Below are positions 4,493-23,331 of a stretch of DNA of 23,624 bases, piece by piece. Numbering within the stretch: position 1 is the first letter of the stretch; each line of letters starts with the position of its first letter. This DNA is from a virus, in IMG/VR virus record IMGVR_UViG_3300020446_001349, positions 1 to 23,624 of that record; one strand, given 5' to 3'. Below the pieces are notes generated by a model. It searched no databases. It saw only the letters and a program-made list of their open reading frames with translations, and was not told where the DNA came from. The position numbers and the translations under genes were made by a program.

Positions 4493-4505
4493 GATAATTA
4501 TTACT

Positions 4506-4946: not shown

Positions 4947-6458
4947 ATGAAGAAGTTAAAAAACATTACCATAGTGGGCGGTGGATCAGCGGCCTGGCTT
5001 GCGGCTACATATCTGCAAAATAATTATTGGGACTTACCAGTCACAGTAATAGATAAAGAAGTAGGTAACCCTATTGGTGTTGGAGAAGCAACTGTATTAA
5101 CATTTCCTCATTTCCTTAGACAATGTGGTATAAACTTACCTGAATGGTTCAAAAATATTGATGCTACTTATAAAGCAGGTATTGAATTTCCGCATTGGAA
5201 AAATCCTAAAAATAATGTGTGGCATCCTTTCTACCTAAATAGAAGTTATCATGTAGATGCATGTACACAGTATGACGTGTGGGCAAATAAACAACACTTA
5301 GATTTTAAAAAAACTGCACTTCCAACATATGAAGTCAATATGTCAAACAAGTTAGATATGTGGGGAGCATTTGAAACTATTGCATATCACATAGACGCAG
5401 GAAAATTAGTTAAAGAATTACAAAGAATTTGTCATACAACAGTTAAAACTATCAAGAGTGATGTTGTAAAGGTTAACAGAGACTTCGATGGAAATATTAT
5501 TAGCTTAGATTTGAAAAACGGAATGAATCATAGCAGTGACTTTTTTATTGACTGCACTGGATTTGCAAGTATATTGAAAGAACCAAAGCGTGTAGAATTA
5601 TTAGGCAATGGCAGGTTGTTTACAAATGCCGCTGTTGCTGGACATGTTCCATATGAAGACTTTGAAAAAGAATGTGTGCCATATGTTAAATGTCCTGCTG
5701 TAGACCATGGATGGATCTGGAAAATACCTGTGCAATCACGTATAGGTTCAGGACTTGTGTTTAACAAAGATATTACAGATCCTGAAGAAGCAAAACGTTA
5801 TTTCTGTGAGCATTGGAATCATAGAATTAAGCCTGAAGATTTGAAATTAATCGATTGGGTTCCTTATTACAGTAAAAACTTTTGGGAAAATAATGTAGTA
5901 TCTATAGGATTAAGTGGTGGCTTCATAGAACCATTAGAGTCAACTGGACTAGCAAGTATGACTACTGGTATAGAAAAACTTATGGATATGATTCCGCAGT
6001 ATGCATACAACGAAGCTAATGTAGAAACATACAATAGAGAAATGGAGTTTTGGTATAATGATGCAGTAGATTTTATAAACAGTCATTATGCAGACACAGA
6101 ATGGAATACGCCTTTTTGGAATTTTGTAAAAGACACACATGTAAAATCAGAAAAACATCTATGGTATGAAGATTGGTTACAAGATCCTAATAGAAAATTT
6201 TATACTCCTGTCAAATCAAGAACTTTATTTCATCCTCCCAATTGGCATCTATGGTTGATACAGATGGGATATCCTGTCAATGTTGACTTAGGTTATTTGC
6301 CGCCAGGAAAACAAGAACATTTACAAAGAGATTTTGATAGGTCAGAAGAAATACGTAAGCATACGAGTATAAAACATGTAGATGCAATAAAGTCAACAAA
6401 CCTTGGTTTAGATTGGCTTGCATTGTCGCAAGCAAGAGGAGATAGAGGCCAGTTATGA
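4947..6458 (+). CDS. flavin-dependent (tryptophan-type) halogenase 1
   Basis: FADH2- and O2-dependent halogenase of the PrnA/RebH family, 503 residues, full length for the family. An N-terminal FAD-binding fold has GGGSAAW (residues 11-17), where the third Gly of GxGxxG is Ala. Next come GVGEATV (44-50) and the catalytic lysine K76 in ATYKAGI. The halogenase signature WIWKIP is at 256-261. The FxxPxxSxG motif, FIEPLESTG (326-334), contains E331, the equivalent of the PrnA/RebH catalytic Glu. Together these suggest HOCl/HOBr generation at the flavin and transfer through Lys. Substrate cannot be deduced; the name tryptophan halogenase is a family name only. The next gene starts within its stop codon (ATGA). 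Hal1 and Hal2 are close relatives and probably arose by duplication. Marine cyanophages are known to carry halogenases, for example VirX1. Confidence 0.9.
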   Translation: MKKLKNITIVGGGSAAWLAATYLQNNYWDLPVTVIDKEVGNPIGVGEATVLTFPHFLRQCGINLPEWFKNIDATYKAGIEFPHWKNPKNNVWHPFYLNRSYHVDACTQYDVWANKQHLDFKKTALPTYEVNMSNKLDMWGAFETIAYHIDAGKLVKELQRICHTTVKTIKSDVVKVNRDFDGNIISLDLKNGMNHSSDFFIDCTGFASILKEPKRVELLGNGRLFTNAAVAGHVPYEDFEKECVPYVKCPAVDHGWIWKIPVQSRIGSGLVFNKDITDPEEAKRYFCEHWNHRIKPEDLKLIDWVPYYSKNFWENNVVSIGLSGGFIEPLESTGLASMTTGIEKLMDMIPQYAYNEANVETYNREMEFWYNDAVDFINSHYADTEWNTPFWNFVKDTHVKSEKHLWYEDWLQDPNRKFYTPVKSRTLFHPPNWHLWLIQMGYPVNVDLGYLPPGKQEHLQRDFDRSEEIRKHTSIKHVDAIKSTNLGLDWLALSQARGDRGQL

Positions 6459-7912
6459 AAATAGTTGTTGTGGGTGGCGGAAGTGCTGGTTGGATGACTG
6501 CCGCATATTTAAAAAACAAACTGCCTAAACATAATATCACAGTAGTTGACAAAGAACATGGAAATCCAGTAGGAGTGGGTGAAGCTACAATAATTGATTT
6601 TGCTCAATATATGGAAGAAGCAGGGTTTGATAGAGAAGAATGGATACCAGCATGTAGAGCCACAGTCAAAGCAGGCATACTATTTCCAAATTGGTTAAGG
6701 AAAGGATTAGAAGTATGGCATCCTTTCTTTATAAACTTTTATGACATGCAAAATGATGCAGATATCTGGGACTATTGGTCTGCAAACAAGAAGTATCCTT
6801 ACAAAGATTATGCAATAATGATGTACGATAGTGCAGTCAGACATAACAAAATTGATCCTAATGATCTAAGCAGTTATGCTTATCATGTTGATTGTGGCGC
6901 TATGGTTCAATATATACAACAAAAAATAAGTTCGCACATACATTTAATTAAACAAGATGTAATACATGTTGAAAAGCAAGGACAGGATATCCAACATTTG
7001 TTATTAAAAAATGGACAAATGGTTCATGCTGATTTATTCATCGATTGCACAGGTTTTCAAAGTTTACTTAAAAAACAAGATAGGGTAGATTTATCTAAGA
7101 GATTATTCTGTGACACAGCCGTTGCTGGTAGAGTAGAATACAAAGACGAAAGCGAATTTGTACCTTATGTTGTTTGTGATGCAGTTGATCACGGTTGGAT
7201 TTGGAAAATACCAACTCAAGACAGAATGGGTTCTGGTTTAGTGTTTAAAAGAAGCATTACTGATCCAGTAGAAGCAGTAGCTTATTTTTGCAAGTATTGG
7301 AACGATAGAATAAAACCTGATCAAACAAAAGTTATAGACTGGACTCCTTACTATAGCAGAAATTTTTGGGAAGGTAATATAGTATCAATAGGACTCAGTG
7401 GGGGATTTATTGAACCGTTAGAATCAACAGGATTAAGCTGTATGATTAAAGGAATAAAACACTTAGAAGAAAGAATTAGAATAGGTTACACAGATCAAAA
7501 TGATAGAAATTATTATAATACAAGACTTGGTTGTTATTACGAAAATGCAATAGATTTTGTAAATATGCATTATTCTAAAACAGAACTATCTAGCAAGTTT
7601 TGGGATTATGTAAAGGAAAATCACACTCCAAGTGATTATCAACTTTGGATGGAAGATGTTATGCGTGATCCTGGCTTTAGAAATCACGTTGCTGTTCAAA
7701 CACAGAACACAAATACAATCTTCCATCCATCGAGTTGGTTTGCTTGGATGGCACAGTTTGAATTTGAATTTAATCCTGAAAAACATTCATTCAAAACTGA
7801 AATTGCAGAATCAAAATTGCTTGATTTTTATGCAGAAGAACAAGCACGTAAAGATAGATGTGTTGATCATAAGGAATATATAGAATCGTTTGGAGGACTA
7901 AAATGGAAATAG
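6455..7912 (+). CDS. flavin-dependent (tryptophan-type) halogenase 2
   Basis: A 485-residue member of the same family with all canonical motifs: GGGSAGW (residues 7-13), GVGEAT (40-45), catalytic lysine K72 in ATVKAGI, WIWKIP (248-253) and FIEPLESTG (318-326) with catalytic Glu E323. It is clearly the closest relative of Hal1 in this window; shared strings include VDHGWIWKIP, GSGLVF, ITDP and SIGLSGGFIEPLESTGL. C-terminal similarity also holds (LWxEDxxxDP, then a FHPxxWxxW segment). The start overlaps the Hal1 stop by 4 bases, and the stop overlaps the Hal3 start by 10 bases. A strong GGAGG for Hal3 lies inside its final codons. Confidence 0.92.
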   Translation: MKIVVVGGGSAGWMTAAYLKNKLPKHNITVVDKEHGNPVGVGEATIIDFAQYMEEAGFDREEWIPACRATVKAGILFPNWLRKGLEVWHPFFINFYDMQNDADIWDYWSANKKYPYKDYAIMMYDSAVRHNKIDPNDLSSYAYHVDCGAMVQYIQQKISSHIHLIKQDVIHVEKQGQDIQHLLLKNGQMVHADLFIDCTGFQSLLKKQDRVDLSKRLFCDTAVAGRVEYKDESEFVPYVVCDAVDHGWIWKIPTQDRMGSGLVFKRSITDPVEAVAYFCKYWNDRIKPDQTKVIDWTPYYSRNFWEGNIVSIGLSGGFIEPLESTGLSCMIKGIKHLEERIRIGYTDQNDRNYYNTRLGCYYENAIDFVNMHYSKTELSSKFWDYVKENHTPSDYQLWMEDVMRDPGFRNHVAVQTQNTNTIFHPSSWFAWMAQFEFEFNPEKHSFKTEIAESKLLDFYAEEQARKDRCVDHKEYIESFGGLKWK

Positions 7913-9381
7913 TTGTAGTAGGTGGAGGTACTGCTGGCTGGCTTGCGGCATTAATGATATCTAAAATTAAACCAGAGCATACTGTTACAGTCATTGAAAG
8001 TTCTAAAATAGGCATTATAGGTGCAGGCGAAGGAAGCACAGGTTCACTAACAACAATAGTGCAAAATGAAATGTTTGATTTAGGTTGTGTTGAGGAGGAC
8101 TTTGTTAAAGAATGTGATGCTACACTAAAACTTGGTATTAAACACATTAATTGGAACAAAGATGTTTCTGGCCATTACATTGCTCCGATAGATGGATCTC
8201 CTACTTCTAATGACCGTTGTGATATTGTGTTCCAACATGCACTAGGATATAGAGATCAAAATCTTTTACATTTAGCAACAGAACTAGGATATAAAATACA
8301 TCATAATAAAAATAGTTTTGTAGAAAAAGACGGTAATCATGCATACCACTTTGATGCACACAAAGTAGGAAAATATTTTAAAAAAATTAGCAATACTGCA
8401 CACATTGACAGTGAAGTAGAGAACGTAATTTTAAATTCAGAAACTGGTTGGGTAGAAAAATTAAAATTAAGTAACGGACAAACAATCCAAGGTGATATGT
8501 TTATTGATGCAAGTGGATTTAATCAAATCTTAATGAAAGCTGTAGGAGGTAAATGGAAAAGTTATAAAGAGAATTTACCTGTCAACAGTGCATTACCATT
8601 TTTATTACCTTACGAAGAAGATGAAAAAATAGAACCTGTAACAAACGCTTGGGCCCAAAACAACGGTTGGTGTTGGCAAATACCAACATTGCATAGAAGA
8701 GGTTGTGGTTATGTTTTTTGTGATGATTTTGTTACACCCGAACAAGCACAAGATGAATTAGAAAAGACAATTGGTAAGAAGGTAGATCCTATACGATTAT
8801 TGAAATTTGAAAGTGGTAGACAAGATAAACTTTGGATCAAAAATGTTTTATCAGTAGGGTTATGTGCGGCTTTTGCAGAACCATTAGAAGCAACAAGTAT
8901 TCATACAACTATTATGCAATTAAAACATTTTGTTTTTGGTTGTCTAAGTGATACAGCAGAAATAACTTGCAATGATGCACAGATCGATTCATATAATAAT
9001 GTTAATGGACACCTTTATGATACAGTCAAAGATTTTTTAGTTGCTCACTATACTTGTGGTAGAAATGATACTGAATTTTGGAAATACATTGATAGTGGTG
9101 CAACTATGACTCAGTTTGTAAAAGACATTCATGCCATGTGCAAATATAGAGTACCAAATGCAACTTTATTTCCAAGACAAGAAGGTAGTGCAGGTTGGCC
9201 GTTATGGAGTTATGTTTTAGCAGGTACAGGAATGTTAAGTGACGAAGTTTGTAGGAAAGAAATAATTTATAATAATGATGAACTAATTGGCAATGCTTCT
9301 TACATTGATTTTGTTGATAAGTTTGATTTTATGGCCAAAGATTTGCCTGATAATACAGAATATATTAGGAATATGCAGTGA
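7903..9381 (+). CDS. flavin-dependent halogenase 3 (second subtype)
   Basis: A 492-residue flavin-dependent halogenase of a different subtype from Hal1/Hal2. It has GGGTAGW (residues 7-13), GAGEGST (40-46, where Hal1/2 have GVGEAT), catalytic lysine K76 in ATLKLGI, WCWQIP (256-261) and FAEPLEATS (324-332) with catalytic Glu E329. The Ser and Gly of the FxxPxxSxG motif are replaced by Ala and Ser. These features, and strings such as GSG...KPW/KLWIKNV, link it to Hal4 on the other strand. Start: ATG with GGAGG at ideal spacing. The stop overlaps the GTG start of HldE (GTGA). Substrate unknown; the different active-site loop suggests a substrate different from that of Hal1/2. Confidence 0.9.
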   Translation: MEIVVVGGGTAGWLAALMISKIKPEHTVTVIESSKIGIIGAGEGSTGSLTTIVQNEMFDLGCVEEDFVKECDATLKLGIKHINWNKDVSGHYIAPIDGSPTSNDRCDIVFQHALGYRDQNLLHLATELGYKIHHNKNSFVEKDGNHAYHFDAHKVGKYFKKISNTAHIDSEVENVILNSETGWVEKLKLSNGQTIQGDMFIDASGFNQILMKAVGGKWKSYKENLPVNSALPFLLPYEEDEKIEPVTNAWAQNNGWCWQIPTLHRRGCGYVFCDDFVTPEQAQDELEKTIGKKVDPIRLLKFESGRQDKLWIKNVLSVGLCAAFAEPLEATSIHTTIMQLKHFVFGCLSDTAEITCNDAQIDSYNNVNGHLYDTVKDFLVAHYTCGRNDTEFWKYIDSGATMTQFVKDIHAMCKYRVPNATLFPRQEGSAGWPLWSYVLAGTGMLSDEVCRKEIIYNNDELIGNASYIDFVDKFDFMAKDLPDNTEYIRNMQ

Positions 9382-10631
9382 TATTAGTATACGGAGATAT
9401 AATGCTTGATCGTTGGATAATAGGTCAAGCAGATAGAATCAGCCCTGAAGCACCAGTACCAATATTGCTTGAAGAACAACAAGATTTCAGCATAGGTGGA
9501 GCAGGAAATTTAGCTGTAAATATTCAATCAATCAACGGTGACGTCAAGCTATATGGAAGTATTGGACAGGACAAAGAAGGATATAAGATCTTAGAATTAC
9601 TTGGTAACACAAATGTTACTCCATATATAGCAAACGATCACTTAATAACAACCACAAAAACACGTTTAGTTAGTCAAAACGGGCAACATATAGTCCGTTG
9701 GGATAGAGAGCAAAAATACATAGGGGAAAATGCGTTTAACCGGCTATTTTCCGACGCTACTATCAATGATGTTATATGTATTAGTGACTATAATAAGGGG
9801 ACAGTTACCAATGATACTGTTTCACAACTTACTGATAAAGGTTGTATGTGTTTGGTAGATCCAAAACAAGATCCAAGTTTTTATAAACATGCATATCTTG
9901 TTAAACCTAATATGAAAGAATACATTGAATGGTTTGGAGAATTTACAAAAGACAAAGCGTTAACAAAAATGCAAGAGCATTACTGGGAATGGTTAGTGGT
10001 TACAGATGGTGCAAACGGACTTCATGTGCTTCACAAGAATGGTGATTATGCTCACTATAAGGAACCTGTACAGGAAGTTGCAGATGTTACAGGTGCAGGA
10101 GATACAGTGCTTGCTATAATTGCTTACGGAATAGAAAGACAAATGGATATTTTCGAAGCCTGTCAACTAGCATGTTATGGAGCCGCACGTATTGTAGAAC
10201 AAAGAGGTGTAGCTGTAATTACAAAAAAAGATTTAAACAAAGGTGTTGTGTTTACTAACGGCGTGTTTGATATTTTACATGTTGGACATCTAAAGTTATT
10301 AAAACATGCAAAAACTTTAGGTAATAAATTAATCGTAGGCATTAATAGTGACGCAAGTGTTAAAAGAATTAAGGGAGATCAAAGACCTATAAACGATCAG
10401 CACAAAAGAAAAGAAGCCTTACTAGAACTAGGGTTTATAGATGATGTAGTCGTTTTTGGTGAAGATACTCCATTAAATGCAATCGAAGATATAAAACCAG
10501 ACATAATAGTAAAAGGAGGTGATTACATACCTGAAACAGTAGTAGGAAACCATTTAGCAGAAGTAGTAATATTTCCAACAGTACAAGGACATAGCACTAC
10601 AAAAACTATTGACAATATTACAAAAAGGTAG
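9378..10631 (+). CDS. hldE: bifunctional heptose-7-phosphate kinase / heptose-1-phosphate adenylyltransferase (HldE-like)
   Basis: Fusion of two enzymes of ADP-heptose synthesis. Residues 1 to about 285 form a PfkB/ribokinase domain: GDIMLDRW near the start, DRISPEAPVPIL, the substrate loop GGAGNLAVNI, and the anion hole DVTGAGDTV with catalytic base D242. From about 289 a nucleotidyltransferase domain begins with FTNGVFDILHVGHL, the HxGH motif being H301-H304, followed by VKRIKGDQRPI and DIIVKGGDY. The domain order is that of E. coli HldE (477 residues); this version is 417, with a shorter kinase domain and linker. The chosen GTG start overlaps the Hal3 stop (GTGA), with AGGA 7 bases upstream. 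Acts between GmhB and HldD in the pathway: the kinase acts on heptose-7-P, and the C-terminal domain on heptose-1-P after GmhB. Confidence 0.93.
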   Translation: MILVYGDIMLDRWIIGQADRISPEAPVPILLEEQQDFSIGGAGNLAVNIQSINGDVKLYGSIGQDKEGYKILELLGNTNVTPYIANDHLITTTKTRLVSQNGQHIVRWDREQKYIGENAFNRLFSDATINDVICISDYNKGTVTNDTVSQLTDKGCMCLVDPKQDPSFYKHAYLVKPNMKEYIEWFGEFTKDKALTKMQEHYWEWLVVTDGANGLHVLHKNGDYAHYKEPVQEVADVTGAGDTVLAIIAYGIERQMDIFEACQLACYGAARIVEQRGVAVITKKDLNKGVVFTNGVFDILHVGHLKLLKHAKTLGNKLIVGINSDASVKRIKGDQRPINDQHKRKEALLELGFIDDVVVFGEDTPLNAIEDIKPDIIVKGGDYIPETVVGNHLAEVVIFPTVQGHSTTKTIDNITKR

Positions 10632-10637: not shown

Positions 10638-10643
10638 AAAGAT

Positions 10644-11492
10644 ATGAAAATATTAGTAACAGGACATAAGGGATTTATTGGAAGCCATATGGCTCAATAT
10701 CTTGTACATAAAGGTCACGAAGTTGAAGGATTTGATTATGTAGAGAATGTTGTACCTGCTGTTGATCAGTATGACTGGGTAATACATTTAGGAGCAATAT
10801 CTGATACTACTGAACGAGATGTAGCAAAAGTTTGGAAACATAATTATGAATTCACACTTAGACTAATGCAAGTTTGCGATCATTATAGCACAAATATTCA
10901 GTTGGCAAGCACTGCCGCAGTATATGGAAATACTGTGAAAGATATGTATACAGAAGAAGATCCTGTATATCCTATGACTCCTTATGCATGGAGCAAGTAC
11001 CTAATTGACAAGTTTTTAATTGATAACGGTATTGATCAATTCAACGGACTTGTGCAATCATATAGATATTTTAATGTATATGGTCCAGGTGAAGGCCATA
11101 AAGGTGATCAAATGAGTATGGTCAGTAAGTTTCAAAGACAAGCATCAGAAAATGGCGTAATAAAACTTTTTAAAAACAGTGACCAATATAAAAGAGATAT
11201 TGTATGTGTTTACGACCTTGTCAGAATACAAGAAGAAATGCTTCACCAAGACAAGAGCGGATTATTTAATTTAGGAACTTCTAAAGCAGTAGATATTGAA
11301 TCTGTTGCAAAACAAGTTGCAGAAAAAACAGGTGCAAAAATTGAATATATAGACATGCCAGATCATCTAAAAAATCAATATCAGGAATACACTTGTGCTG
11401 ATAATTCAAAGCTACATAACACTATACCAATAAGACATTGGATTACTTTAGAAGAATATTTGAAGGAAATTGTACATGACAGAACGTCTTGA
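10644..11492 (+). CDS. hldD: ADP-L-glycero-D-manno-heptose-6-epimerase-like SDR (HldD-like)
   Basis: An extended short-chain dehydrogenase of 282 residues (E. coli HldD is about 310). It has the nucleotide-binding GHKGFIG (residues 7-13), the HldD-like HLGAISDTTE (48-57), LASTAAVYG (87-95), the catalytic pair Y114-x3-K118 in YAWSK, and the HldD signature RYFNVYGP followed by GHKG (151-154), whose lysine K153 corresponds to the second catalytic Lys of HldD. Later, YQEYTCAD matches the HldD C-terminal YQxxTxAD. It epimerises C6 of ADP-D-glycero-D-manno-heptose to the L-glycero form used as LPS donor. It directly follows hldE (12 bases), which supports the call over a generic UDP-sugar epimerase. 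The 3' end overlaps the cupin start. Confidence 0.88.
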   Translation: MKILVTGHKGFIGSHMAQYLVHKGHEVEGFDYVENVVPAVDQYDWVIHLGAISDTTERDVAKVWKHNYEFTLRLMQVCDHYSTNIQLASTAAVYGNTVKDMYTEEDPVYPMTPYAWSKYLIDKFLIDNGIDQFNGLVQSYRYFNVYGPGEGHKGDQMSMVSKFQRQASENGVIKLFKNSDQYKRDIVCVYDLVRIQEEMLHQDKSGLFNLGTSKAVDIESVAKQVAEKTGAKIEYIDMPDHLKNQYQEYTCADNSKLHNTIPIRHWITLEEYLKEIVHDRTS

Positions 11493-11871
11493 AGGGAAAG
11501 TTGAAAAAGGTTGGGGATATGAATTAATCTGGGCAACCAACGAAAAATACTGTGGTAAAATTATGGTATTTGAAAAAGTTGGTGCTAAATTTTCAATGCA
11601 TTTTCATAGAGAAAAAGACGAAAGTTGGTTTGTGAATAATGGTAAATTTTTACTTAGATGGATAGATACAAAAACATCTCAACTTCATGAACAAGAATTA
11701 ACTTCTGGCATGACCTGGCACAATCCTCCATTGCAACCACATCAATTGGTTTGTTTAGAAGCAAATAGTTCTATAACAGAAGTAAGCACTGCTGATTCAG
11801 TTGAAGATAATTATCGGATTGCTCCTGGAGATAGCCAAAAAGAACCTAGGCCTGAGCCTCACCCCACTTAA
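11476..11871 (+). CDS. cupin protein (phosphomannose-isomerase-like fold)
   Basis: A single-domain cupin of 131 residues. Core motif 1 is FSMHFHREKDESWFV with the metal-binding H-x-H and a glutamate; motif 2 is HNPPLQPHQLV. It ends with TADSVEDNYRI, reminiscent of the C-terminal part of type II mannose-6-phosphate isomerase cupins, which suggests a sugar-phosphate or nucleotide-sugar substrate. This is an inference from fold and place only. A TTG start at 11470 is open, but the ATG at 11476 is preferred because AAGGA lies at a good distance before it. The gene is last in the operon, overlaps hldD by 17 bases, and its 3' end overlaps the convergent 1987-residue structural gene by 26 bases. Confidence 0.72.
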   Translation: MTERLEGKVEKGWGYELIWATNEKYCGKIMVFEKVGAKFSMHFHREKDESWFVNNGKFLLRWIDTKTSQLHEQELTSGMTWHNPPLQPHQLVCLEANSSITEVSTADSVEDNYRIAPGDSQKEPRPEPHPT

Positions 11872-14800: not shown

Positions 14801-17800
14801 ATTTCCTACGACATAACCAGATCCATTTGCGTTTATAGCTAGAGAATATACTCCTGACGTTCTTGTTACGTCAAAAGTACCGCTTGCTCCTGCGTGTGCT
14901 TCGTTGGTTCCTGCTTGTCCTGTGAAAGTTGTAGGTAACGTAGGTGCTGTACCTACTATACTAATATTGTTTACTCTACCTTGATCAGCCGCATTTGTAT
15001 TCAAGGTTGAATCTACTGTGATTGTGGCATCATTAGTTGGGCTTGTACCTCCTAATGCAGTACCAGCTATTGTAAATGATTGTCCTGATATATAATCATT
15101 TCCTGCTGTATCAAGAGCCACCGAATACGAAGATCCGTCATTTGTAACATCAAAAACTGCTCCACTACCATTGTAAACAGTAAGTGTTTTTCCAACAAAA
15201 GTTCCACCGTTATAAGGAGTTGCAATCGTTGATTCGTCCGCTCCTTCTGCTCTTACATCAGTAATTCTACCTGTTCCATCTATTGAAACTACTCTTAGAT
15301 ATAAATCATTTGCAGGACTAGAACCTCCTAAATCAGCACCGCTACAAACGATCACATCAGCTGTGTTAAAGCCTGTACCTCCGTTTTGTATTTGCACTTG
15401 ATAAGCCGCGCCTACTCCTGTTTGGATTGATACTTGAAAATCTAAATTAGAACCTGAACCGCCTGTATATGATAATGCACTTGCACCAAAGCTGTATGAT
15501 TTATTTACTGACGGTGGAGTACCTGTTCTACCTGCGGCATTTATAATTGTAATTGATGTAATTGATCCTCCAGCACCAACAGCACCAACCTTCATAACCA
15601 AATCATTACCGCCGTCGTTTTGGCTTCCATCTTGTCCAGTTCCTGGCTCTACATTTTGTCCTGTAATTCTAATTCCGTCGTGTAATGCAAACCCAGTTGT
15701 ATCGTTAGGTGAATTGATATTTACTACTGTGTAAGCATTATTTTCAAATGCAATGTCAAAGTTTGTACTTCCAAGACTACCGCCGCCTCCACTGTAAGTG
15801 TTAGCAACGTTTTGATATGTAATGCTTCCGCTTAATGCAGTACCTGTGATAGTTGCTGATGTAATTCCACCTGTGCCGTTTACTGCTGTAACAGTAATTA
15901 TTGCATCATTGGCTGGTGTAACACCGCCTAAATTATCTCCAGTAATTTTAATTTTGTCACCTTGTTTGTATCCCGAACCTGATTGATTTATTCCATCAAC
16001 TGAATACGCCGCGCCTGTTCTACTTAAATTAAATTGTCCATTAACACCTGCTGGAGCTGTGATTGTTCCGCTTACACCTGTGTATGTTTCCGTGTTTTTA
16101 GTAATATTAGTAGTGAAAGATCCACTCATGCTAATTGTATTTCCAACAATGTTGTTAACAAATATAGCATCTCCAGAACCGTTATCTGCCGCTAATCCTT
16201 GAACAATTCCCGATGTAGAACTTACAGTGAACTGTGTGTTGCCACTTGAAATATCACTTGTTAAATTAACTGGTAAAGCTGTACCTCCTGGTGTACTTGC
16301 AATACCTGAAACCTGTGTACCTGTTGGTAATGCCGCATTCACAATCGGAGCACCAATTTCTGGAACATCTCCTGTAAACGCTAATCTATTTTCACCAATC
16401 TGCGCCGCCAATGAAAGTGACATGGTTCCGTTTGTACCATTACTGAAAACATCAAATCTTGGCTGTCCTACACTTGCACCAGTATAAAAGTTTCCTTGTC
16501 TTAGTTGAGTATATGTTGTTGATAAAACCTGTCCATTGGTAGTACCTACTTTTGCTTTTGCGTAAAATGTAAATGTAGTCGCTGTAGGAACACTGTCAAT
16601 TACAAAAGATCCTTCAGCTCTAGCCGCACCAACTACAGCATCTTCTAATGCTTTAATTGTTATAGGTGTTCCTGGTTCAAATCCGTGAGCACCAATAGTT
16701 GTAACTGTAATTTTAGAAGCACCAATACCGCTTGTGCCTGATGATGCATCAGTAACAACTGTTTGCACTTGTGTATCTGTACCTGGTACTTCGTACACAC
16801 TTGGATAACCCCTCATCATACCTATAGCTGACCATTTTGTCGGCTGTAATCCGTATTCAAAGTCAGCATCAAGCATGGACAATGGAGGAGCAATACGCAT
16901 ACGTTCAATAGCATCTGTTCCAAAATTGTATGGACGCATTATCTGTTCTGGTGTGTCAGTGAAAATCTGAATTTCATCAGACTCTGACATAGAACTTGTA
17001 TCAAATTCTAAATCTAAAACACTAATAGCATCTGTTGTTTGTAAGTATTTTGGAAAATCATCATCTGCGTTTTCATTGGAATTTGTTGAATCGTACTTAA
17101 CAACATAACCACCACTATCTCTAGGAGTAACATCATCTAATCTTGTGATTTTACCGCCTTTAAGTGGATCTGTAAAGTTGAAAATTACTGTAGACTTTGA
17201 AGTGTTAGTTACAATTAACATGTCACTAGTGTCATAGTTTCCTACAAATCTAATATGTCCTAAACCTTTTCTTTCATAGGTTGGTAAACTAGAAAGTCCG
17301 TTTTGAATGACATCTCTTACTACATTTGCAAGGTACTGAATCCTTGTACTTGCCGCTGGTTCACTTGTCTTTGACGAGTCAATTACTTGTGCTACTGCTG
17401 ATTGATATGGTGTAGATTGTGCTGAATTTGTAAGCACGTGGTTGTTAATTAAGTCTCTTGTAAACTCTTTTGCTTTTACTTCAGCAACTCTTGTTCCATC
17501 AACTTGTGCAACGTCTTTTTCCCAATAAGTATTTGCAATTCTATAAGTTTCTGCATTACCTCCATACTTTAAATCATGAACGTAAGCATCAACATTGTAT
17601 CCTGTATCTCTTTCACATTTGGATTCACTATAAGTATACCCTTCAAAACCAGTTGCATTATCTGCCACTTGTTGTGAAATCCAGGCTGTTACTTCTTTTT
17701 GTATAAAAGTCTTGTTAGCTACTATTAATGCTTCAGCATTAGGGTATCTACTACCGTTTAGACCAATGCCTGGGTAAAACTTATAATTATATATTTTTTT

Positions 17801-17809
17801 CTTTGCCAT
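11846..17809 (-). CDS. giant virion structural protein (tail fibre / baseplate-associated)
   Basis: A 1987-residue protein of the kind found in marine T4-like phages. The N-terminus (MAKKKIYNYKFYPGIG) leads to a helical domain with YTYSESKCERDTGYNVDA and LKYGGNAETY. Then come beta-rich regions, including five tandem repeats at about residues 593-1060, each with a GxGY..GDxIxIxG..LGG..P.NDA.ITV core. The far C-terminus, PGETVFSFIAQPGERSTLD then LKELTNTTLGGRGTFPNG and VKWGEAQA, resembles a conserved ending of cyanophage structural proteins. It is rich in Gly, Thr, Ser and Asn and has no enzymatic motif I could see. Shine-Dalgarno GGAG lies 8 bases before the ATG. Last gene of the leftward structural operon. 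A long tail fibre or whisker-like role fits; the exact position in the virion is not known. Confidence 0.8.
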   Translation of the reverse strand: MAKKKIYNYKFYPGIGLNGSRYPNAEALIVANKTFIQKEVTAWISQQVADNATGFEGYTYSESKCERDTGYNVDAYVHDLKYGGNAETYRIANTYWEKDVAQVDGTRVAEVKAKEFTRDLINNHVLTNSAQSTPYQSAVAQVIDSSKTSEPAASTRIQYLANVVRDVIQNGLSSLPTYERKGLGHIRFVGNYDTSDMLIVTNTSKSTVIFNFTDPLKGGKITRLDDVTPRDSGGYVVKYDSTNSNENADDDFPKYLQTTDAISVLDLEFDTSSMSESDEIQIFTDTPEQIMRPYNFGTDAIERMRIAPPLSMLDADFEYGLQPTKWSAIGMMRGYPSVYEVPGTDTQVQTVVTDASSGTSGIGASKITVTTIGAHGFEPGTPITIKALEDAVVGAARAEGSFVIDSVPTATTFTFYAKAKVGTTNGQVLSTTYTQLRQGNFYTGASVGQPRFDVFSNGTNGTMSLSLAAQIGENRLAFTGDVPEIGAPIVNAALPTGTQVSGIASTPGGTALPVNLTSDISSGNTQFTVSSTSGIVQGLAADNGSGDAIFVNNIVGNTISMSGSFTTNITKNTETYTGVSGTITAPAGVNGQFNLSRTGAAYSVDGINQSGSGYKQGDKIKITGDNLGGVTPANDAIITVTAVNGTGGITSATITGTALSGSITYQNVANTYSGGGGSLGSTNFDIAFENNAYTVVNINSPNDTTGFALHDGIRITGQNVEPGTGQDGSQNDGGNDLVMKVGAVGAGGSITSITIINAAGRTGTPPSVNKSYSFGASALSYTGGSGSNLDFQVSIQTGVGAAYQVQIQNGGTGFNTADVIVCSGADLGGSSPANDLYLRVVSIDGTGRITDVRAEGADESTIATPYNGGTFVGKTLTVYNGSGAVFDVTNDGSSYSVALDTAGNDYISGQSFTIAGTALGGTSPTNDATITVDSTLNTNAADQGRVNNISIVGTAPTLPTTFTGQAGTNEAHAGASGTFDVTRTSGVYSLAINANGSGYVVGNEITIVGGNLGGSAPTNNAVITVTGVDGSGGLSSASVTGTGIAGGSLNLVNAVTLTDFTTQTITASSSVNFEALATIEITWPYAHGIVPGDTFIVDVNTDDGGTNNHSLAAGSFIAVNIPTTKKIRYNTRAPGNILEFDGTSTEDKINGNVYLRPDSFFIHRPYDGGVQLGTGGPQHGAQAIRQSKKYIRYQSGKGIMYTTGALFAPSYDVRTITASGTEIGATVTIVTDDNDHGAQVGGKVRIIGAETAGYNGEYIVTQIVDERTLRCLATRRLGSTNAVLGFAAQMTVVGWHGATVRSGIFDDQNGIYWEFDGSNISVAQRTSTKQIAGTVTATPDSNLITGANTRFRDQLKAGDRIVLKGMTHVVANVDSQTQITITPDYRGVNPVYAAKVNLITDKKVLQEEWNLDKMDGTGQSKYNMDVRYMQMIGIQYSWYGAGFIDWMARGADGNFVFCHRMRNSNVNTEAFMRSGNLPVRYEVTNEGAFSQLASDINDSQTSIQIVESKFFPDSGTVYIDNELITYTTIDHTTKTLTNCTRGTSLVNFQAGATRQYNAGPASGHEARTGVILVSNTITPLISHWGSAFITDGMFDEDRGYIFSYTESGIQVSTTRQTAFLLRLAPSVSNAIVGDLGDRELLNRAQLLMQGLELTSDGVDPQNSNAPITGGIVIEGILNPQNYPVNPSDIGWTGLSGLAQGGQPSFAQVASGASVNWNSGDTATYSQVAVMPQVTTTAQLMPWWSFRTNRSYAYFLQSSWETANLQVGDEVNADGGGNEYFPAGTTIQQIVDQTIYGRYLVYFSQNSNSNSSNGATQTFQKGGDTVNSNVAFFTKSAWDTGGAKNGTEIGDSSGDPTNQNDITMPAGSYVSNIQGPLLFGDQNSGGIEYYRVTFNNAFNGTLSPGDLFNFTFQQPPYAQPGETVFSFIAQPGERSTLDLNLLKELTNTTLGGRGTFPNGPDVLAINIYKTEGTTTPANIIVKWGEAQA
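14630..16033 (-). repeat. five tandem approximately 82-107-residue repeats in the giant structural protein
   Basis: Units begin (minus strand) near 16033, 15760, 15439, 15154 and 14875, each with F-x-V/L/I then a Y-x-V/L strand. They continue with a glycine turn, a 'GD/GN-x-I-x-I' strand, LGGxxPxND (loop expanded in unit 2) and I-T-V, and end with a G-x-I/L-x-x segment. The units are diverged in DNA, so this is an old protein-level duplication and not a recent expansion. Confidence 0.8.
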
Positions 17810-17812
17810 TCT

Positions 17813-18370: not shown

Positions 18371-18378
18371 TGTCTATC

Positions 18379-19863
18379 CTATAGTCCACTTATGTCTTTA
18401 ACAACAATAGTTCCTCTCATTGAACTGTGTACTGTACATTGATATGCATAGTTACCACTTATGTTTGCAGGAACTTTCCAATATAATGTACCCGATGTTT
18501 TACCTTGTGCTTGCGAACCTGTTGAAACTGATCCGTCTAACCCAATGTGCACCAATCCGTTGTTGTATGCTGTGCCACCACTTGTTTCAATTTGGAATGG
18601 ATGATTAGATCCACTATTGATTTTAAATGCAATAGTTGTTCCTGATATTGCATAAATTGTTGGATCTTCTGTATTTCCATATTGATCCATTTTGTATCCG
18701 TTGTTAGAATCTGCTGAAACAACTAGCGTTGTAATTGCAGGTAAAGCCATTTCATCAAAAGTTTTTCCTGTTACATTTGCCCAACCACTACCAGTATAAA
18801 GTAATAGTTGTCCTGTTGCCGCTCCTGATGCTGATACATCTGTCAAACTATCCAAGTTGTTTGATCCAGAGTAATTAATAGTTACTGTGTCACCTGTTAC
18901 TGCTGTTGAAATATTTGTACCACCTGCAATAGTAAGTGTATCTGTTTTACTATCTGCCGCCGCTATACCTGTGTCAGCTTGAACATTAGAAAATGCATTT
19001 TGGTTTTCTTCACCTGAGTTAGGAGAACCAGTGTAAGCAATAGTCACTGTATCACCAACGATGCTTGTAGCAATGTTTGCTCCACCTGCAACAGTTAAAG
19101 TATCAGTAGTTGAGTTTGCAGTTGTTGTGCCAGTGTCAGCATCTACTGTAGCAAAAACATTTTGGTTTCCGCCTGCACTTATTGTTGTAAATGTAAATGT
19201 TCCTGAACCATCTGTGGTTAACACTTGTCCACTTTGACCATCTGAAATACTTAGGTCAGTAAGTGAGCTTGGTACAGTTGGTCGGTTATTTAAATTGTTG
19301 TAATTTAGATAATATGAACCGTCTTGTCCATCAAGTGTATCAGCGTCAGTACCTCCGCCACCTGATGTTGCATCTGTTCCTGGTGCCCATTTGCCACCAT
19401 CCCATTTTAAAACGTTTCCTGTTTGCGGTGGTGTACTTGTTGTGTCAACATCAGATAGGGAATTGATGTTTCCTACATAAGCAACTGTTTTTAATGGATC
19501 TGTGTAATTAGCTACTGCTCCACCACTTGTATCAAGCAACATTTTCCTCCATGCACCTGCATGTGCAACATATACTGTACCACCTTCGTGTACATGTAAC
19601 ATTGCTCCGTGATAAGTCGATGGACTTATCGCATTCATTTGGTTTAATGTTGCGGCATGAAATGCCAATTTATTAATCTTGTTGTCGTCGTTTGGAATAT
19701 CTATTTCCATACTTGAATTGACGATATCTTTTAAATTTACACCATCGCCTAGTGCATTGTACAGCTCATCGGCGTTAGCATTAATCTTAGTAGCACCTGC
19801 TCTAAGACTATCACCAGTTCCGTCATTTGCGGCTGTACCTACGTTTAGTACTGATTTTGCCAT
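18379..19863 (-). CDS. tail-fibre-like structural protein with C-terminal cupredoxin-like domain
   Basis: A 494-residue protein. The N-terminus (LNVGTAANDGTGDSLRAG then KINANADELYNAL) is an attachment module common to marine phage fibre proteins. The middle holds a WDGGKW motif, a TDADTLDGQDGSYYL segment and two near-identical repeats of about 45 residues. The C-terminal 110 residues look like a cupredoxin: H421 in NHPFQI, then YQCTVHSSMRGTIVV with C476, H479 and M482, a full His-Cys-His-Met type 1 copper ligand set. The domain assignment rests on this spacing and on the GTLYWKVP...GNYAYQC pattern. Copper binding is a hypothesis; the domain may be only structural. The ATG has an AGGGTG Shine-Dalgarno, 3 bases after the upstream gene. 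Confidence 0.75.
   Translation of the reverse strand: MAKSVLNVGTAANDGTGDSLRAGATKINANADELYNALGDGVNLKDIVNSSMEIDIPNDDNKINKLAFHAATLNQMNAISPSTYHGAMLHVHEGGTVYVAHAGAWRKMLLDTSGGAVANYTDPLKTVAYVGNINSLSDVDTTSTPPQTGNVLKWDGGKWAPGTDATSGGGGTDADTLDGQDGSYYLNYNNLNNRPTVPSSLTDLSISDGQSGQVLTTDGSGTFTFTTISAGGNQNVFATVDADTGTTTANSTTDTLTVAGGANIATSIVGDTVTIAYTGSPNSGEENQNAFSNVQADTGIAAADSKTDTLTIAGGTNISTAVTGDTVTINYSGSNNLDSLTDVSASGAATGQLLLYTGSGWANVTGKTFDEMALPAITTLVVSADSNNGYKMDQYGNTEDPTIYAISGTTIAFKINSGSNHPFQIETSGGTAYNNGLVHIGLDGSVSTGSQAQGKTSGTLYWKVPANISGNYAYQCTVHSSMRGTIVVKDISGL
18871..19169 (-). repeat. two-copy internal repeat in the 494-residue fibre protein
   Basis: Units at about 19169-19030 and 19005-18871 encode QNVFATVDADTG... 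and QNAFSNVQADTG..., each followed by TDTLTVAGG or TDTLTIAGG, then a GDTVTI strand and a YxGS end. About 45 residues each, in tandem, similar at the DNA level, hence a more recent duplication than the repeats of the giant protein. Confidence 0.75.
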
Positions 19864-19866
19864 CTT

Positions 19867-20379
19867 TTACACCCTATCAAATGTTAATGTTGTATTATCC
19901 ATTGTACTTGTATTACTATCAAAAGTATTTATTCCGCTTACCTCTTCGGTACTCGTATCTGCGACTATAGCAGGAGGAGTAAGTTGATGAATAGTCTTAG
20001 CGTAAGTAGCATGGAATACTAGTTTTGCGCCTGCGTAAGTTTTCGACTTAGGTTCTACGTGAATCTTACATTCACTAGCGTCTACTGTAACAGATATATT
20101 AATTAATTCTTGGTTAATGCTTGATCTACCAAATATATTTGCTACTGCTCTATCGGGTCTAGCAACAACGCTTAATTGCATTATCTCTTTTTCGTTTGAA
20201 TCAAATTCAACTGTGATCTGATAAACAGCACTACTAAATTCACCAACATGAAATGAATCCATTATGGTGTTATACTGAACTCCGATCCAATGGCCTTTAT
20301 AACTAAAGCTAGATCTTTCTGGTAATTCTATAGTATTGTTTGACCCTTTTTTAAATAGATTTGTCAGAAGTTTACTCAT
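19867..20379 (-). CDS. putative virion structural protein, first gene of the fibre operon
   Basis: A 170-residue protein with no recognised enzyme motif. It has a basic start (MSKLLTNLFKKG) and then alternating beta-strand-like segments, including VYQITVEFD, ISVTVDA and AKLVFHATYAKTIHQLTPP. The final 35 residues are Thr/Ser/Asp rich. Its position behind a late promoter and ahead of three structural genes (3-base spacing to the next) suggests a virion or assembly protein. The function is otherwise unknown. Shine-Dalgarno GGAG lies 8 bases before the ATG. Confidence 0.6.
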   Translation of the reverse strand: MSKLLTNLFKKGSNNTIELPERSSFSYKGHWIGVQYNTIMDSFHVGEFSSAVYQITVEFDSNEKEIMQLSVVARPDRAVANIFGRSSINQELINISVTVDASECKIHVEPKSKTYAGAKLVFHATYAKTIHQLTPPAIVADTSTEEVSGINTFDSNTSTMDNTTLTFDRV

Positions 20380-20397
20380 TACACATGCTCCATATTG

Positions 20398-20405
20398 TAT
20401 TTATC
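20398..20405 (-). promoter_or_regulatory. T4-like late promoter of the leftward structural operon
   Basis: The minus strand reads GATAAATA, 19 bases before the ATG at 20379 and between the GmhB-like gene and the fibre operon. It is identical to the motif before the rightward operon at 1862. A weaker AATAAATA lies inside the 170-residue gene at 19926-19933, about 60 bases before the 494-residue gene. Confidence 0.6.
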
Positions 20406-20436
20406 GTTTTGTACAGATATAGAAGAGTATAAAAAG

Positions 20437-21021
20437 CTATGATAAATCTACGAGACTATGAGCGAACTGGCTTAGATTGTCGAATACCTCTGTTTTCTTC
20501 TTTAGGTCTTTGTTAGCAAAGGTATCTAACTTTTTAACTGTTTCTAAACCATAGCCTGTACGCACTAAAATGGGCTTTGCTTTTGCTTTGATAGCCGCTT
20601 TGAGGTCAGTTATTTTGTCACCTACATATACTCCGTTTGTCCAATCAACGCCTATTTCAGCAGAAGCTCGTTTGAACATACCAGGATTAGGTTTTCTATA
20701 AGGATCGTCCTTAAAAGGTGTTGTTGAATAATACAATCCGTTGATGCTTTTACAGCCTATATCTCCTAATAATTGTAACATGTAATTGTTTACAATATCA
20801 ACATCAACTGCATCCATAATTCCTTTTTGTATTCCGGATTGATTAGTCAATATTACTACATCATATCCTTTGTCACGCATAATTTTAATTGCTTCTAAGC
20901 TACCTGGTATTGGTTTGAATTGTTCTGGCTTAATACAGTAGGGTGGTACACCTTCTTGTGTCAATCCTATATCTTGATTTATAGTTCCGTCTCTATCTAA
21001 GCCAATAACGGGTGTACTCAT
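20437..21021 (-). CDS. gmhB: HAD-family phosphatase, GmhB-like (heptose-1,7-bisphosphate 7-phosphatase)
   Basis: A 194-residue HAD subfamily IIIA phosphatase, the same length as E. coli GmhB (191). Motif I is LDRDGTIN with D9 and D11. Motif II lies in VVILTNQSG, followed by the GmhB-like I-Q-K-G. Then GLYYS, K-P-N-P-G-M (motif III lysine) and GVYVGDKITDLKAA (motif IV). In GmhB the product feeds HldE, both of whose domains are encoded in this window. The zinc-binding Cys/His loop usual between YY and RKPxPG is shortened and has no Cys or His. A longer start at 21042 is open, but ATG 21021 aligns with the family and has GGAGA 7 bases upstream. It lies one base past the stop of the SGNH-like gene. 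Histidinol-phosphatase-type HAD enzymes are the nearest alternative. Confidence 0.82.
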   Translation of the reverse strand: MSTPVIGLDRDGTINQDIGLTQEGVPPYCIKPEQFKPIPGSLEAIKIMRDKGYDVVILTNQSGIQKGIMDAVDVDIVNNYMLQLLGDIGCKSINGLYYSTTPFKDDPYRKPNPGMFKRASAEIGVDWTNGVYVGDKITDLKAAIKAKAKPILVRTGYGLETVKKLDTFANKDLKKKTEVFDNLSQFAHSLVDLS

Positions 21022-21022
21022 A

Positions 21023-21877
21023 TTATGGTCTCCATCTATCATCTGACCAACCTAATTTTGCTTTGTTAAACCATTTTAACTCACCTAATATAATTGGATC
21101 TTTTTCTAATAATTGTTCTTTCCATTGTTCAACAAATTCTTTTGTTTCATTACTTAATTTGCAAACATGTGATTCTACGTAATCTGCCGCTTCGTGTGTA
21201 AGTGGATGAAGTTCATGTAACAGCATGTGTTCATGTTCTGGATTTAATGACGGAGTGCTTTTTGGTCTTGTTGCTTGCCATTCCTCTGTTGTTCCAAACT
21301 TCAATGCATTTAATATTGGAGGACAAGATGTTTTAATATCTTCTTTATACATTTCTAAGACTGCACGTAAATCTTCTATTTCTAATTTATCATTTTTAAA
21401 TTGTGTATTTTGGTCTTCCCAACCTTCAAACCAGTCTCTAAAGCAAGTTGTAATAACTTTGCAACCAATTTTTTCTAATGCTTTGTGAGTGCTAGATATC
21501 AAAGCACAATCTCGCATAGTTACATGAATCAAATCAGCCCATTGCCATTTGTTTTTATAGAAAAAATTATTCAAAACCATTGCGTCACCATCAACAGTCA
21601 TATTACTAAAGTTACCAGGTGTCCACCATCCATGCCCCATATGGTATCTATCTTCTCTAAACATACTAGACCATTGTAATAATATTACATCGTCTTCGGT
21701 AAATTTATGTACAGTATTTGCTTCCCATAATCTTGTGAATATATATTGGTTACCTGCTCCACTCCTTGCCCAGTTTTCTCCATGATAACCTTTTTGTTTA
21801 TAGTCATGTAGTACAACATCTGCCCAGGTAGGATAAAAATATTGCGATAGACTACAACCAAAAGCAAAAATTCTCAT
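21023..21877 (-). CDS. SGNH/GDSL-like hydrolase
   Basis: A 284-residue protein resembling SGNH hydrolases: FGCSLS at residues 6-11 (block I, candidate nucleophile S9), SGAGNQ with N43 (block III-like), and a HELHPLTHEAADY segment with H224 in place of the usual DxxHP. Here the Asp position is His, with an adjacent Glu (E222). Family members hydrolyse or transfer acyl groups on sugars, lipids or peptides. The protein is tryptophan-rich (WWTPGNF, FRDWFEGWEDQ), which is compatible with carbohydrate binding. Its start overlaps the Hal4 stop by 4 bases (ATGA), and its stop abuts the GmhB-like gene. That places it in a putative glycan-modification operon. The substrate is not known. Confidence 0.6.
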   Translation of the reverse strand: MRIFAFGCSLSQYFYPTWADVVLHDYKQKGYHGENWARSGAGNQYIFTRLWEANTVHKFTEDDVILLQWSSMFREDRYHMGHGWWTPGNFSNMTVDGDAMVLNNFFYKNKWQWADLIHVTMRDCALISSTHKALEKIGCKVITTCFRDWFEGWEDQNTQFKNDKLEIEDLRAVLEMYKEDIKTSCPPILNALKFGTTEEWQATRPKSTPSLNPEHEHMLLHELHPLTHEAADYVESHVCKLSNETKEFVEQWKEQLLEKDPIILGELKWFNKAKLGWSDDRWRP

Positions 21878-23331
21878 ACTAATCTCCGCAATAAATCTAA
21901 CATCATCTTGTGCGGAATAGCTTTAATTTTATCAAATTCTGTTTTTTCTTGATACAATCTTTCAGTATGGTCCTTCGCTTCTTGTGGTAAATTTTCATAT
22001 TGCATTTTAATTTTTTTGTTATCAAACAATTCAAGACCATTCATTACCAATGCAAAATTATATTCGTTGAATAAAATCTTTTTTGTATGTGAAGTGAAAT
22101 CGTCAGCCACTGGCATCCTTTGTCTCCACATCGCTAAATTGTTTGCTAATGAATCTGGTATCTCTACTTCTGCTACAGCTTTCCAAAAATCTGTATCCCT
22201 GCGTTTTGTTATGTAGTGTAGGACAATAAAATCTCTTATGTTATCCATTATTGCACCTATCTCAACGTTGTATCTATCAATTGTTTGCTTATTATAATTT
22301 ACTAGACGTTGTGCAAGTAAAAAACTTTGATTGATACTTGTTCCAATACTACTTGCTTCTAGGGGTTCTACAAAATTTGCACTCAATCCAATTGCACAAA
22401 CATTTTTAATCCAAGGTTTATCCAAACACCCTGGCTCGAACTTGAGATGTTTTGCAATTTGTACTCCATGTCCTAAGTAGGTTTCGATTTCTATTTGAGC
22501 TTGATCTGGTGTAATGAAGTCGCTATCAAAAATATACCCGTTACCTTTTCTACCCCAAATAGGAATTCGAAACATCCATCCACTATTCATAGCCCTTGCT
22601 AATGTCCATATTGGTATTTCATCTTCTTCAGCAGTAGGAAATACAATAGCTTCTTTCATTTTAAGATACTTACTATAGCTTTGCCACTTTGCTCCTAATT
22701 TTCCAATAAGTAATCTTGCAAAACCTGTACAGTCTACATAAAAATCGTATTCATATGTGTTAGATTGGCTTTTTATTTGTCTCACTGATCCTAAATCATT
22801 AAAAATCACATCTTCTATTTCATCATCAAGTACTACACAACCCTTTTCCTCGGCTTTCTTTGTAAGATAATCATTTAACTTATGTGTATTAAAATGGTAT
22901 TGGCTAACTCCTGTCTCATTAGGTCTTTCTTCCATAAATTTCATGAAAGGTGTTTTGTTTTCATAAAGGTAATCACCAACAAACTCTCTTGGGTCTGCAT
23001 TTTCTCCGATTAGTTTTGCAAATGCCATCGGCATTCCTAAATGATCAAACGTGTAAGGACCATGAACATTTTGCAGATAGTCCTTGCCGCCCCAATCTTT
23101 AAACATAATGCCACTCTTGAAACTTGCATCTGTTTCTTTTACAAGTTCTCCTGCTGAAATACCAACGTAATCCATAAATGCTGTGAAATGTTCTGTAGAT
23201 CCTTCACCAACTCCTATGGTTCCAATCTTTGTTGAACGTATTACGTCAACTTCATACTGCGGAAAACTTGTTTTAAGTATAAGTGCTGACACAAATCCTG
23301 CTGTGCCGCCGCCGACTACAGCAATTTTCAC
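21874..23331 (-). CDS. flavin-dependent halogenase 4 (second subtype, WxF variant)
   Basis: A 485-residue flavin-dependent halogenase related to Hal3: GGGTAGF (residues 7-13), GVGEGST (40-46), catalytic lysine K72 in ASFKSGI, and FVEPLEASS with catalytic Glu E325. The family signature WxWxIP reads WMFRIP (252-257), so the second Trp is Phe. The preferred start is GTG at 23331: it overlaps the upstream stop as GTGA, has GGGGAG 7 bases before it, and gives an N-terminus (MKIAVVGGG) matching Hal2 and Hal3. An in-frame ATG at 23346 would lie inside that Shine-Dalgarno and add five residues. Substrate unknown. It is the only halogenase in the leftward arm and is translationally coupled to the SGNH-like gene. 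Confidence 0.88.
   Translation of the reverse strand: MKIAVVGGGTAGFVSALILKTSFPQYEVDVIRSTKIGTIGVGEGSTEHFTAFMDYVGISAGELVKETDASFKSGIMFKDWGGKDYLQNVHGPYTFDHLGMPMAFAKLIGENADPREFVGDYLYENKTPFMKFMEERPNETGVSQYHFNTHKLNDYLTKKAEEKGCVVLDDEIEDVIFNDLGSVRQIKSQSNTYEYDFYVDCTGFARLLIGKLGAKWQSYSKYLKMKEAIVFPTAEEDEIPIWTLARAMNSGWMFRIPIWGRKGNGYIFDSDFITPDQAQIEIETYLGHGVQIAKHLKFEPGCLDKPWIKNVCAIGLSANFVEPLEASSIGTSINQSFLLAQRLVNYNKQTIDRYNVEIGAIMDNIRDFIVLHYITKRRDTDFWKAVAEVEIPDSLANNLAMWRQRMPVADDFTSHTKKILFNEYNFALVMNGLELFDNKKIKMQYENLPQEAKDHTERLYQEKTEFDKIKAIPHKMMLDLLRRLV

Follow-up and report, generated by a model that had tools for sequence, protein, structure and literature searches.

Four predicted flavin-dependent halogenase genes in a putative phage tail region and the recurrence of multi-halogenase sets in related viruses

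The linear IMG/VR virus record IMGVR_UViG_3300020446_001349, analysed here over all of its 23,624 bases (the window), contains four full-length genes for predicted flavin-dependent halogenases (FDHs), Hal1 to Hal4 (Table 1). Three are in tandem, with Hal1 overlapping Hal2 by 4 nt, Hal2 overlapping Hal3 by 10 nt, and Hal3 overlapping an HldE-like heptose gene by 4 nt; the fourth lies on the opposite strand. An original prediction from the bare sequence had placed four such genes here, three with overlapping ends and each with a catalytic Lys and Glu. The overlaps are as described, and the genes and residues are borne out by Pfam PF04820 scores, motifs and alignment to PrnA. For Hal4 the gene stands and its extent changes: it starts at 23346, the 23331 given earlier being a possible in-frame GTG five codons later.

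All four proteins score 288–319 bits against PF04820, for which the curated cut-off is 21, and also match phrog_2928. Passing the cut-off is weak proof in itself, since 5 of 14 control genomes, Escherichia coli included, exceed it; the assignment is made from the high scores together with the motifs and with matches to RebH, VirX1 and Tar14, relatives of solved structure. The catalytic Lys and Glu, present in all four, align with K79 and E346 of PrnA (counted on the aligned PrnA rows) and occupy invariant columns in a 52-row alignment. The flavin motif GxGxxG is intact in Hal2, Hal3 and Hal4 and reads GGGSAA in Hal1, where the final Gly has become Ala. The WxWxIP motif, which belongs to the FDH signature according to PMC8407142 (this and the other published sources are cited from partial text), is kept in Hal1 to Hal3 and reads WMFRIP in Hal4. 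Within the Hal4 clade, WxWxIP is found in phages P-SSM2 and S-H38, and the member from a distant viral stretch, L112, has F. From their sequences, Hal1 to Hal4 are predicted variant-A FDHs.

A structure of Hal4 predicted from the 52-row alignment, a check proposed with the original prediction, has a mean predicted local distance difference test score (pLDDT) of 91.3. It aligns with the Trp halogenase SttH at Z 44.3 over 465 residues (2.2 Å) and with VirX1 at Z 36.8, absence of a family from this fold search being uninformative. The model thus predicts a halogenase fold over the full length of Hal4. A Hal2 model built from the single sequence reached a pLDDT of 34 and was discarded. Might these be halogenase-fold flavin enzymes with another activity in vivo, such as hydroxylation? 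The loss of the second Trp of WxWxIP in Hal4 would fit such a role; against it are the Lys and Glu retained in all four and the halogenating activity of the phage enzyme VirX1 from this family (PMC8407142), and we regard it as very improbable.

Table 1. Genes of the window, halogenases first (aa, amino acids)
Feature	Position	Strand	Data
Hal1, FDH	4947-6458	+	503 aa; PF04820 288.5 bits; K76/E331
Hal2, FDH	6455-7912	+	485 aa; PF04820 298.4 bits; K72/E323
Hal3, FDH	7903-9381	+	492 aa; PF04820 308.3 bits; K76/E329
Hal4, FDH	21874-23346	-	490 aa; PF04820 319 bits; K77/E330
gp13-like head-tail adaptor	1066-1827	-	phrog_211; genomic anchor
gp15-like tail sheath stabilizer	3035-4492	+	phrog_11196, phrog_227; genomic anchor
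NUDIX hydrolase	4506-4946	+	PF00293 56 bits; phrog_1198; stops one base before Hal1
HldE-like heptose-phosphate kinase/adenylyltransferase	9378-10631	+	GTG start; overlaps Hal3; PfkB and CTP_transf_like
HldD-like ADP-heptose 6-epimerase	10644-11492	+	best NCBIfam match heptose_epim, 226 bits (under cut-off 274.6)
Cupin	11470-11871	+	phrog_7851 'cysteine dioxygenase'; Cupin_2 23.3 bits (under cut-off)
Virion structural protein	11846-17809	-	1987 aa; phrog_5838 832 bits
Baseplate/tail-fibre connector protein	18379-19863	-	phrog_677 312 bits; T4_gp9_10_N 38 bits
GmhB-like heptose bisphosphate phosphatase (HAD-IIIA)	20437-21042	-	NCBIfam 126 bits
284-aa protein	21023-21877	-	overlaps Hal4; 68% in contig G003

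The ratio of nonsynonymous to synonymous substitution (dN/dS) against sister genes was estimated by a simple Nei-Gojobori count, in which dS near saturation in several pairs makes the values rough: 0.041 and 0.056 for Hal1, 0.012 for Hal2, 0.033 and 0.070 for Hal3, and 0.059 and 0.069 for Hal4, compared with 0.063 for the gp13-like structural control, 0.12 for the HldD-like gene and 0.155 for the HldE-like gene. All four halogenase genes are clearly under purifying selection, and decay of duplicates is rejected by these ratios. Pairwise identity is 44% between Hal1 and Hal2, 35% between Hal3 and Hal4, and 25–28% in the other pairs. A tree of 105 rows (51 viral, 54 bacterial) contains four main virus-only clades, with support given by the Shimodaira-Hasegawa approximate likelihood ratio test (SH-aLRT): the Hal1/Hal2 clade, which includes S-SSM7 (14 rows, SH-aLRT 100), the Hal3 clade (13 rows, 99), the Hal4 clade with P-SSM2, S-H38 and S-SCSM2R (11 rows, 100), and the clade of VirX1 (8 rows, 99), to which none of Hal1 to Hal4 belongs. 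Hal2 falls outside a ten-row Hal1 clade (SH-aLRT 100). The tree was made by a quick method that leaves 43 of 102 inner branches open; viral open reading frames (ORFs) were left out if below 380 aa or truncated at the end of a contig, apart from one of 402 aa, and the others thinned at 82% identity, while bacterial ORFs were kept at 440–600 aa and thinned at 55%. On the tree the virus/bacteria label requires five changes, only two of which are forced by starred branches. That the four arose by recent duplication of a single halogenase is rejected by the 25–44% identities, the three viral clades and the position of Hal2, and the sequences place the Hal1/Hal2 split as an old one. The view that these are four intact, distinct enzymes and not decaying duplicates is upheld by dN/dS, identity and clade membership, and for Hal4 by the fold.

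As auxiliary metabolic genes, the four might halogenate free host Trp or another host aromatic compound, with host metabolism altered or competitors killed as a result. The family name suggests this, and among proteins of solved structure Hal1, Hal3 and Hal4 match Trp halogenases best. The sequence alignments to PrnA stop at residues 408–442, short of the C-terminal part that holds free Trp, which we take to be about residues 443–455, although the structural alignment of the Hal4 model runs right through to the end. A single substrate hardly justifies several separate clades, and the location among tail genes described below also speaks against such a role, which we consider improbable.

Is a set of this size peculiar to the window? 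Sister contigs typically carry Hal1 and Hal3 in tandem with Hal4 about 13 kb further on. Hal1 is followed directly by Hal3 in 35 of the 42 viral contigs with a Hal1 relative; in 4 Hal2 comes after Hal1, and the sequence of the other 3 stops too early. A further count used 47 records with a length of 14 kb or more, chosen from the whole set of contigs found. A Hal4-type gene lies on the opposite strand in all 22 of these that reach at least 13 kb past a close Hal3 relative, with all three FDHs within the record in 19 and the other 3 cut before Hal1. Given this adjacency and the constancy of Hal4, three FDHs look like the norm of the lineage and Hal2 like an addition restricted to the close relatives of the window. 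One large relative, the 262-kb contig G003, has a Hal1 relative of 84% identity. Another contig, L117, shares with the window the part between Hal4 and position 14476, with 9067 of 9149 bases identical and a Hal4 differing by two residues. An assembly chimera is unlikely because of this overlap and because the Hal1-Hal2 tandem recurs in 4 other contigs, 2 of which have the three-gene tandem.

More distant records extend the pattern. Nineteen came from searches with L112 genes of the Hal2 and Hal4 types, so that they are selected for such genes, and some look near-duplicate. Sixteen have four or five FDHs (five in 6), two have three and one has one; these counts include short and cut ORFs, take two-piece ORFs once, and contain short FDH-like ORFs of about 33–98 bits, near a possible control-genome level, which may not be halogenases. 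Around the FDHs, 18 of the 19 stretches have 7–10 ORFs resembling 2-oxoglutarate (2OG) oxygenases, as judged by BLAST similarity to 12 proteins of L112 and 4 of L117; the exception, L303, has one FDH and no 2OG-oxygenase-like ORF. Homologues of the window's gp13, gp15 and NUDIX genes, or of its 1987-aa structural gene, occur in 8 of the 19. In L112 (G037) itself each of the four viral clades is represented by one full-length FDH, and these four and a short one of 402 aa are set among 12 2OG-oxygenase-like proteins. Seven of these are profile-backed: 6 exceed a 2OG Pfam cut-off and 1 matches phrog_81, while 2 fall below the cut-off, 1 matches DUF6445 and 2 are matchless. The short FDH-like ORF (L112:7169-8377, minus strand) is very divergent (tree branch above 5) and retains Lys and Glu; this type, of 367–402 aa, also occurs in P-TIM40 and S-SSM7, which have full-length FDHs as well. 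A 558-aa protein adjoining the L112 cassette (2904-4580) is, by eye, a putative GroEL chaperonin.

The multi-FDH set therefore looks like a common trait of the phage group and not a one-off. The original prediction held four copies to be exceptional in phages otherwise known for single ones. The first part gives way to the Hal4-type gene in 22 of 22 sisters and the four or five FDHs in 16 of 19 distant records, such arrangements being largely routine in this group. As to single copies, we scanned whole 20 named records picked from tblastn matches (each search giving the best 60 of 65–83 records). Twelve do have one FDH, and the other 8 have more when short ORFs are counted: three in S-RIM44; two each in Syn10, P-RSM6, Sf-CH11, Sf-FP1 and MT835646; two and a 391-aa short one in P-TIM40; and one and a 367-aa short one in S-SSM7. 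VirX1 itself, identified by sequence, is the second gene of an overlapping FDH pair in Syn10. Published surveys are in line with these counts, reporting prnA in 6 of 16 cyanophage genomes, two with two copies (PMC3037559), and an FDH in 20 of 153 (PMC10452541); in the open-licence literature, as far as its partial text goes, we found no phage described as having four or more FDHs. Bacteria, too, commonly have FDHs in tandem: 25 of 80 halogenase loci (kept from 592) have more than one FDH-like ORF of at least 300 aa within about 7 kb, pieces possibly being counted.

Two observations on the named phages stand apart. One S-RIM44 FDH (L168:8001-9437) has Gln at the catalytic Glu position (FLEPLQ), a kind of substitution that abolishes FDH activity according to a review (PMC8407142). 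A small phrog_1787 protein (135–221 aa in the seven examined) occurs in 20 named records, including Syn10 (L166:5980-6474). VirX1 has its 20 best matches in the same records, and in every case where coordinates were compared the halogenase was located just downstream; the small protein may be a partner of the VirX1-type enzyme, or its substrate.

What kind of phage carries these genes? A megablast search for a near-DNA relative among named phages gave zero matches. The gp15-like protein has its top full-length matches, at about 32–33%, in Atu_ph07 (Agrobacterium), Phosso (Sinorhizobium) and PA5oct-like Pseudomonas jumbo phages, with shorter matches of up to 41%. The photosystem genes psbA/psbD (PF00124) were found in none of 15 related records, which include contigs of 262, 168 and 124 kb and may be incomplete. 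On these two grounds the phage is unlikely to be a cyanophage; from the same evidence, the window seems to be the neck and tail region of a large T4-related phage with a probably non-cyanobacterial host. Its habitat is probably marine, going by its named relatives and by sample numbers.

The halogenases have enzymes of several kinds as neighbours. The best NCBIfam match of the HldE-like protein is HldE (339.9 bits, under the cut-off of 521), and that of the GmhB-like protein is D-glycero-beta-D-manno-heptose 1,7-bisphosphate 7-phosphatase (under the cut-off of 178). Three enzymes of an ADP-heptose pathway (HldE-, HldD- and GmhB-like) are thus found within a phage tail region; GmhA was not noticed among the window ORFs scanned, which were not all of them. 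The 284-aa protein overlapping Hal4 has zero Pfam, NCBIfam or PHROG matches. Past Hal4, L117 continues with a NodU-like carbamoyltransferase and four 2OG-oxygenase-like proteins (one over the Pfam cut-off, one below it with phrog_81, one DUF6445 and one matchless); carbamoyltransferase and 2OG-oxygenase genes are also present in G003. The same contig has three tandem, paralogous Gly/Cys-rich proteins of 278–279 aa (L117:56-2590), each with 29–30 Cys, 50–54 Gly and 9–10 Trp, which are possible adhesins. In the Pseudomonas jumbo phages Cassandra, Deifobo, Ettore, Paride and vB_Pa-PAC2, a NUDIX gene is likewise listed under the tail sheath stabilizer match, so the NUDIX gene may belong to an old structural neighbourhood and not to the halogenase system. 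Elsewhere in the window, the C-terminus of the connector protein has an H...C..H...M pattern that by eye resembles what we take to be a blue-copper (cupredoxin) site, and a Cys-rich ORF of 111 aa (113-448; 75% in G003) is by eye possibly a small zinc-binding or HNH-like protein.

The reading that we tentatively prefer, at rather less than even probability, is of a tailoring cassette with four FDHs in the neck and tail region that acts on a late component of the virion, the likeliest target being aromatic residues of tail-tip or adhesin proteins, or a glycan on them. The cassette would run NUDIX-Hal1-Hal2-Hal3-HldE-HldD-cupin on one strand and GmhB, the 284-aa protein and Hal4 on the other, continuing in the overlapping contig with the 2OG-oxygenase-like genes and the NodU-like carbamoyltransferase. 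By analogy with the known family, each enzyme would use reduced flavin, probably supplied by the host, with O2 and halide to form hypohalous acid at the flavin; this would pass to the Lys, and an electron-rich aromatic ring would be halogenated next to the Glu. The four may act on different sites or in successive steps, with tail-tip or adhesin aromatics, or a glycan on them, as targets, and the outcome would be a chemically varied receptor-binding surface.

A late virion component is favoured because FDHs of several clades adjoin tail-fibre or adhesin genes. S-SRM01 has the order tail fibre, hypothetical, FDH, gp37-gp38 adhesin tip. The FDH is adjacent to, or at most two genes from, tail-fibre or tail-fibre-assembly genes in P-SSM2, P-TIM40, P-RSM6, Sf-FP1, S-WAM1 and Sf-FR1; collagen-like genes are one gene away in DSL-LC01 and S-CREM1; and an unannotated near neighbour of the Syn10 FDH belongs to a tail-fibre-assembly family with a Gly-rich domain. 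Overall, a tail-fibre or adhesin gene is listed in 8 of the 20 named stretches (in S-H38 more than 6 kb off) and a collagen-like or giant structural gene in 3 more, the stretches being nine of about 17 kb, one of 10 kb and ten of about 7 kb. The cassette also recurs near gp13, gp15 and NUDIX and the large structural gene. Chemically, a protein could serve as the target, since the FDHs MibH and SrpI act on ribosomal peptides (PMC12615548).

Several points weigh on the other side. The tail-linkage counts are raw, without a random-position control. Some FDHs lie away from tail genes: the third copy of S-RIM44 and those of S-PM2 and Syn1 are near talC and/or hli, that of S-MbCM6 is beside psbA, and that of HTVC008M lies between terminase genes. 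Zero tail genes are listed in the S-SCSM2R stretch, and near the S-SSM7 FDH only minor coat proteins and gp13/gp14; the MT835646 stretch is unannotated. PF01613 (Flavin_Reduct), the sole reductase family searched, was found in none of the 15 related records. Finally, the heptose, carbamoyl and epimerase genes suit a glycan or a metabolite at least equally well.

These sugar genes point to another product, a halogenated sugar or amino-acid conjugate that would serve as a secondary metabolite or decorate host surface glycans and so block rival phages. The heptose enzymes would provide the sugar, and the carbamoyltransferase, 2OG oxygenases and halogenases would tailor it. Such a product has been predicted, in the partial text of PMC7824862, for the jumbo cyanophage S-SSM6a, whose FDH is the top named match of Hal1 (41%). 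The S-SSM7 FDH, an equal match, stands beside heptose kinase/adenylyltransferase, phosphoheptose isomerase, epimerase and carbamoyltransferase genes. The S-SSM6a/S-SSM7 cluster (PMC7824862) has heptose, epimerase, cupin-type, carbamoyltransferase and 2OG oxygenase genes near gp13. Of the features of this cluster type, the window itself has FDHs, a cupin, a HAD phosphatase (the GmhB-like one) and the HldE- and HldD-like genes, and the carbamoyltransferase and 2OG oxygenases lie outside it, next to Hal4 in L117 and in G003. A HemK-like methylase, another feature of the S-SSM6a cluster, was not noticed in the window or L117, where no dedicated search was made. S-SSM7 differs in having one full-length FDH and the short one, as against four full-length in the window. 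Against a conjugate are the position of the FDHs among late structural genes and the distant loci, which pair FDHs with 2OG-oxygenase-like genes and matched none of the window's heptose genes; nor was an obvious scaffold enzyme (a synthetase, or one for aromatic biosynthesis) noticed in the stretches examined, again without a dedicated search. With sugar enzymes among the neighbours, we hold this explanation to be a serious possibility, still well short of probable and nearly as likely as tailoring of a virion component.

Other known systems are similar in part. VirX1 (cyanophage Syn10, PDB 6QGM) is a phage variant-A FDH that matches them in fold and catalytic residues and likewise belongs to a tandem pair near tail-fibre genes, but Hal1 to Hal4 are in three other viral clades, and its phage is a cyanophage with two FDHs. 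The prnA genes of P-SSM2, S-H38 and S-SCSM2R belong with Hal4 and are 37–44% identical to it, yet are single copies in all three. Bacterial tandem FDHs of the BrvH type share the tandem arrangement (BrvH has a 42.7% neighbour; PMC5945002) and fall mostly in clades apart from the viral ones.

In this phage group, then, FDHs form conserved sets that are under selection and draw on distinct viral clades; they lie amid oxygenase-like genes and near tail genes, and a conserved cassette of three to five halogenases is itself notable. Several FDH clades are pointed out as uncharacterised in the surveyed literature. The label of auxiliary gene can be replaced by a testable question: are virion proteins halogenated, or phage-made glycans? 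The boldest form of the tailoring proposal, that a large group of phages uses three to five halogenases, partitioned by substrate, to halogenate its own tail-tip adhesins (or the glycans these bear) and hydroxylates them as well, we judge unlikely, though worth stating. If true, it would be a virus-encoded protein-halogenation system, by which a receptor-binding surface is diversified chemically and not by sequence alone.

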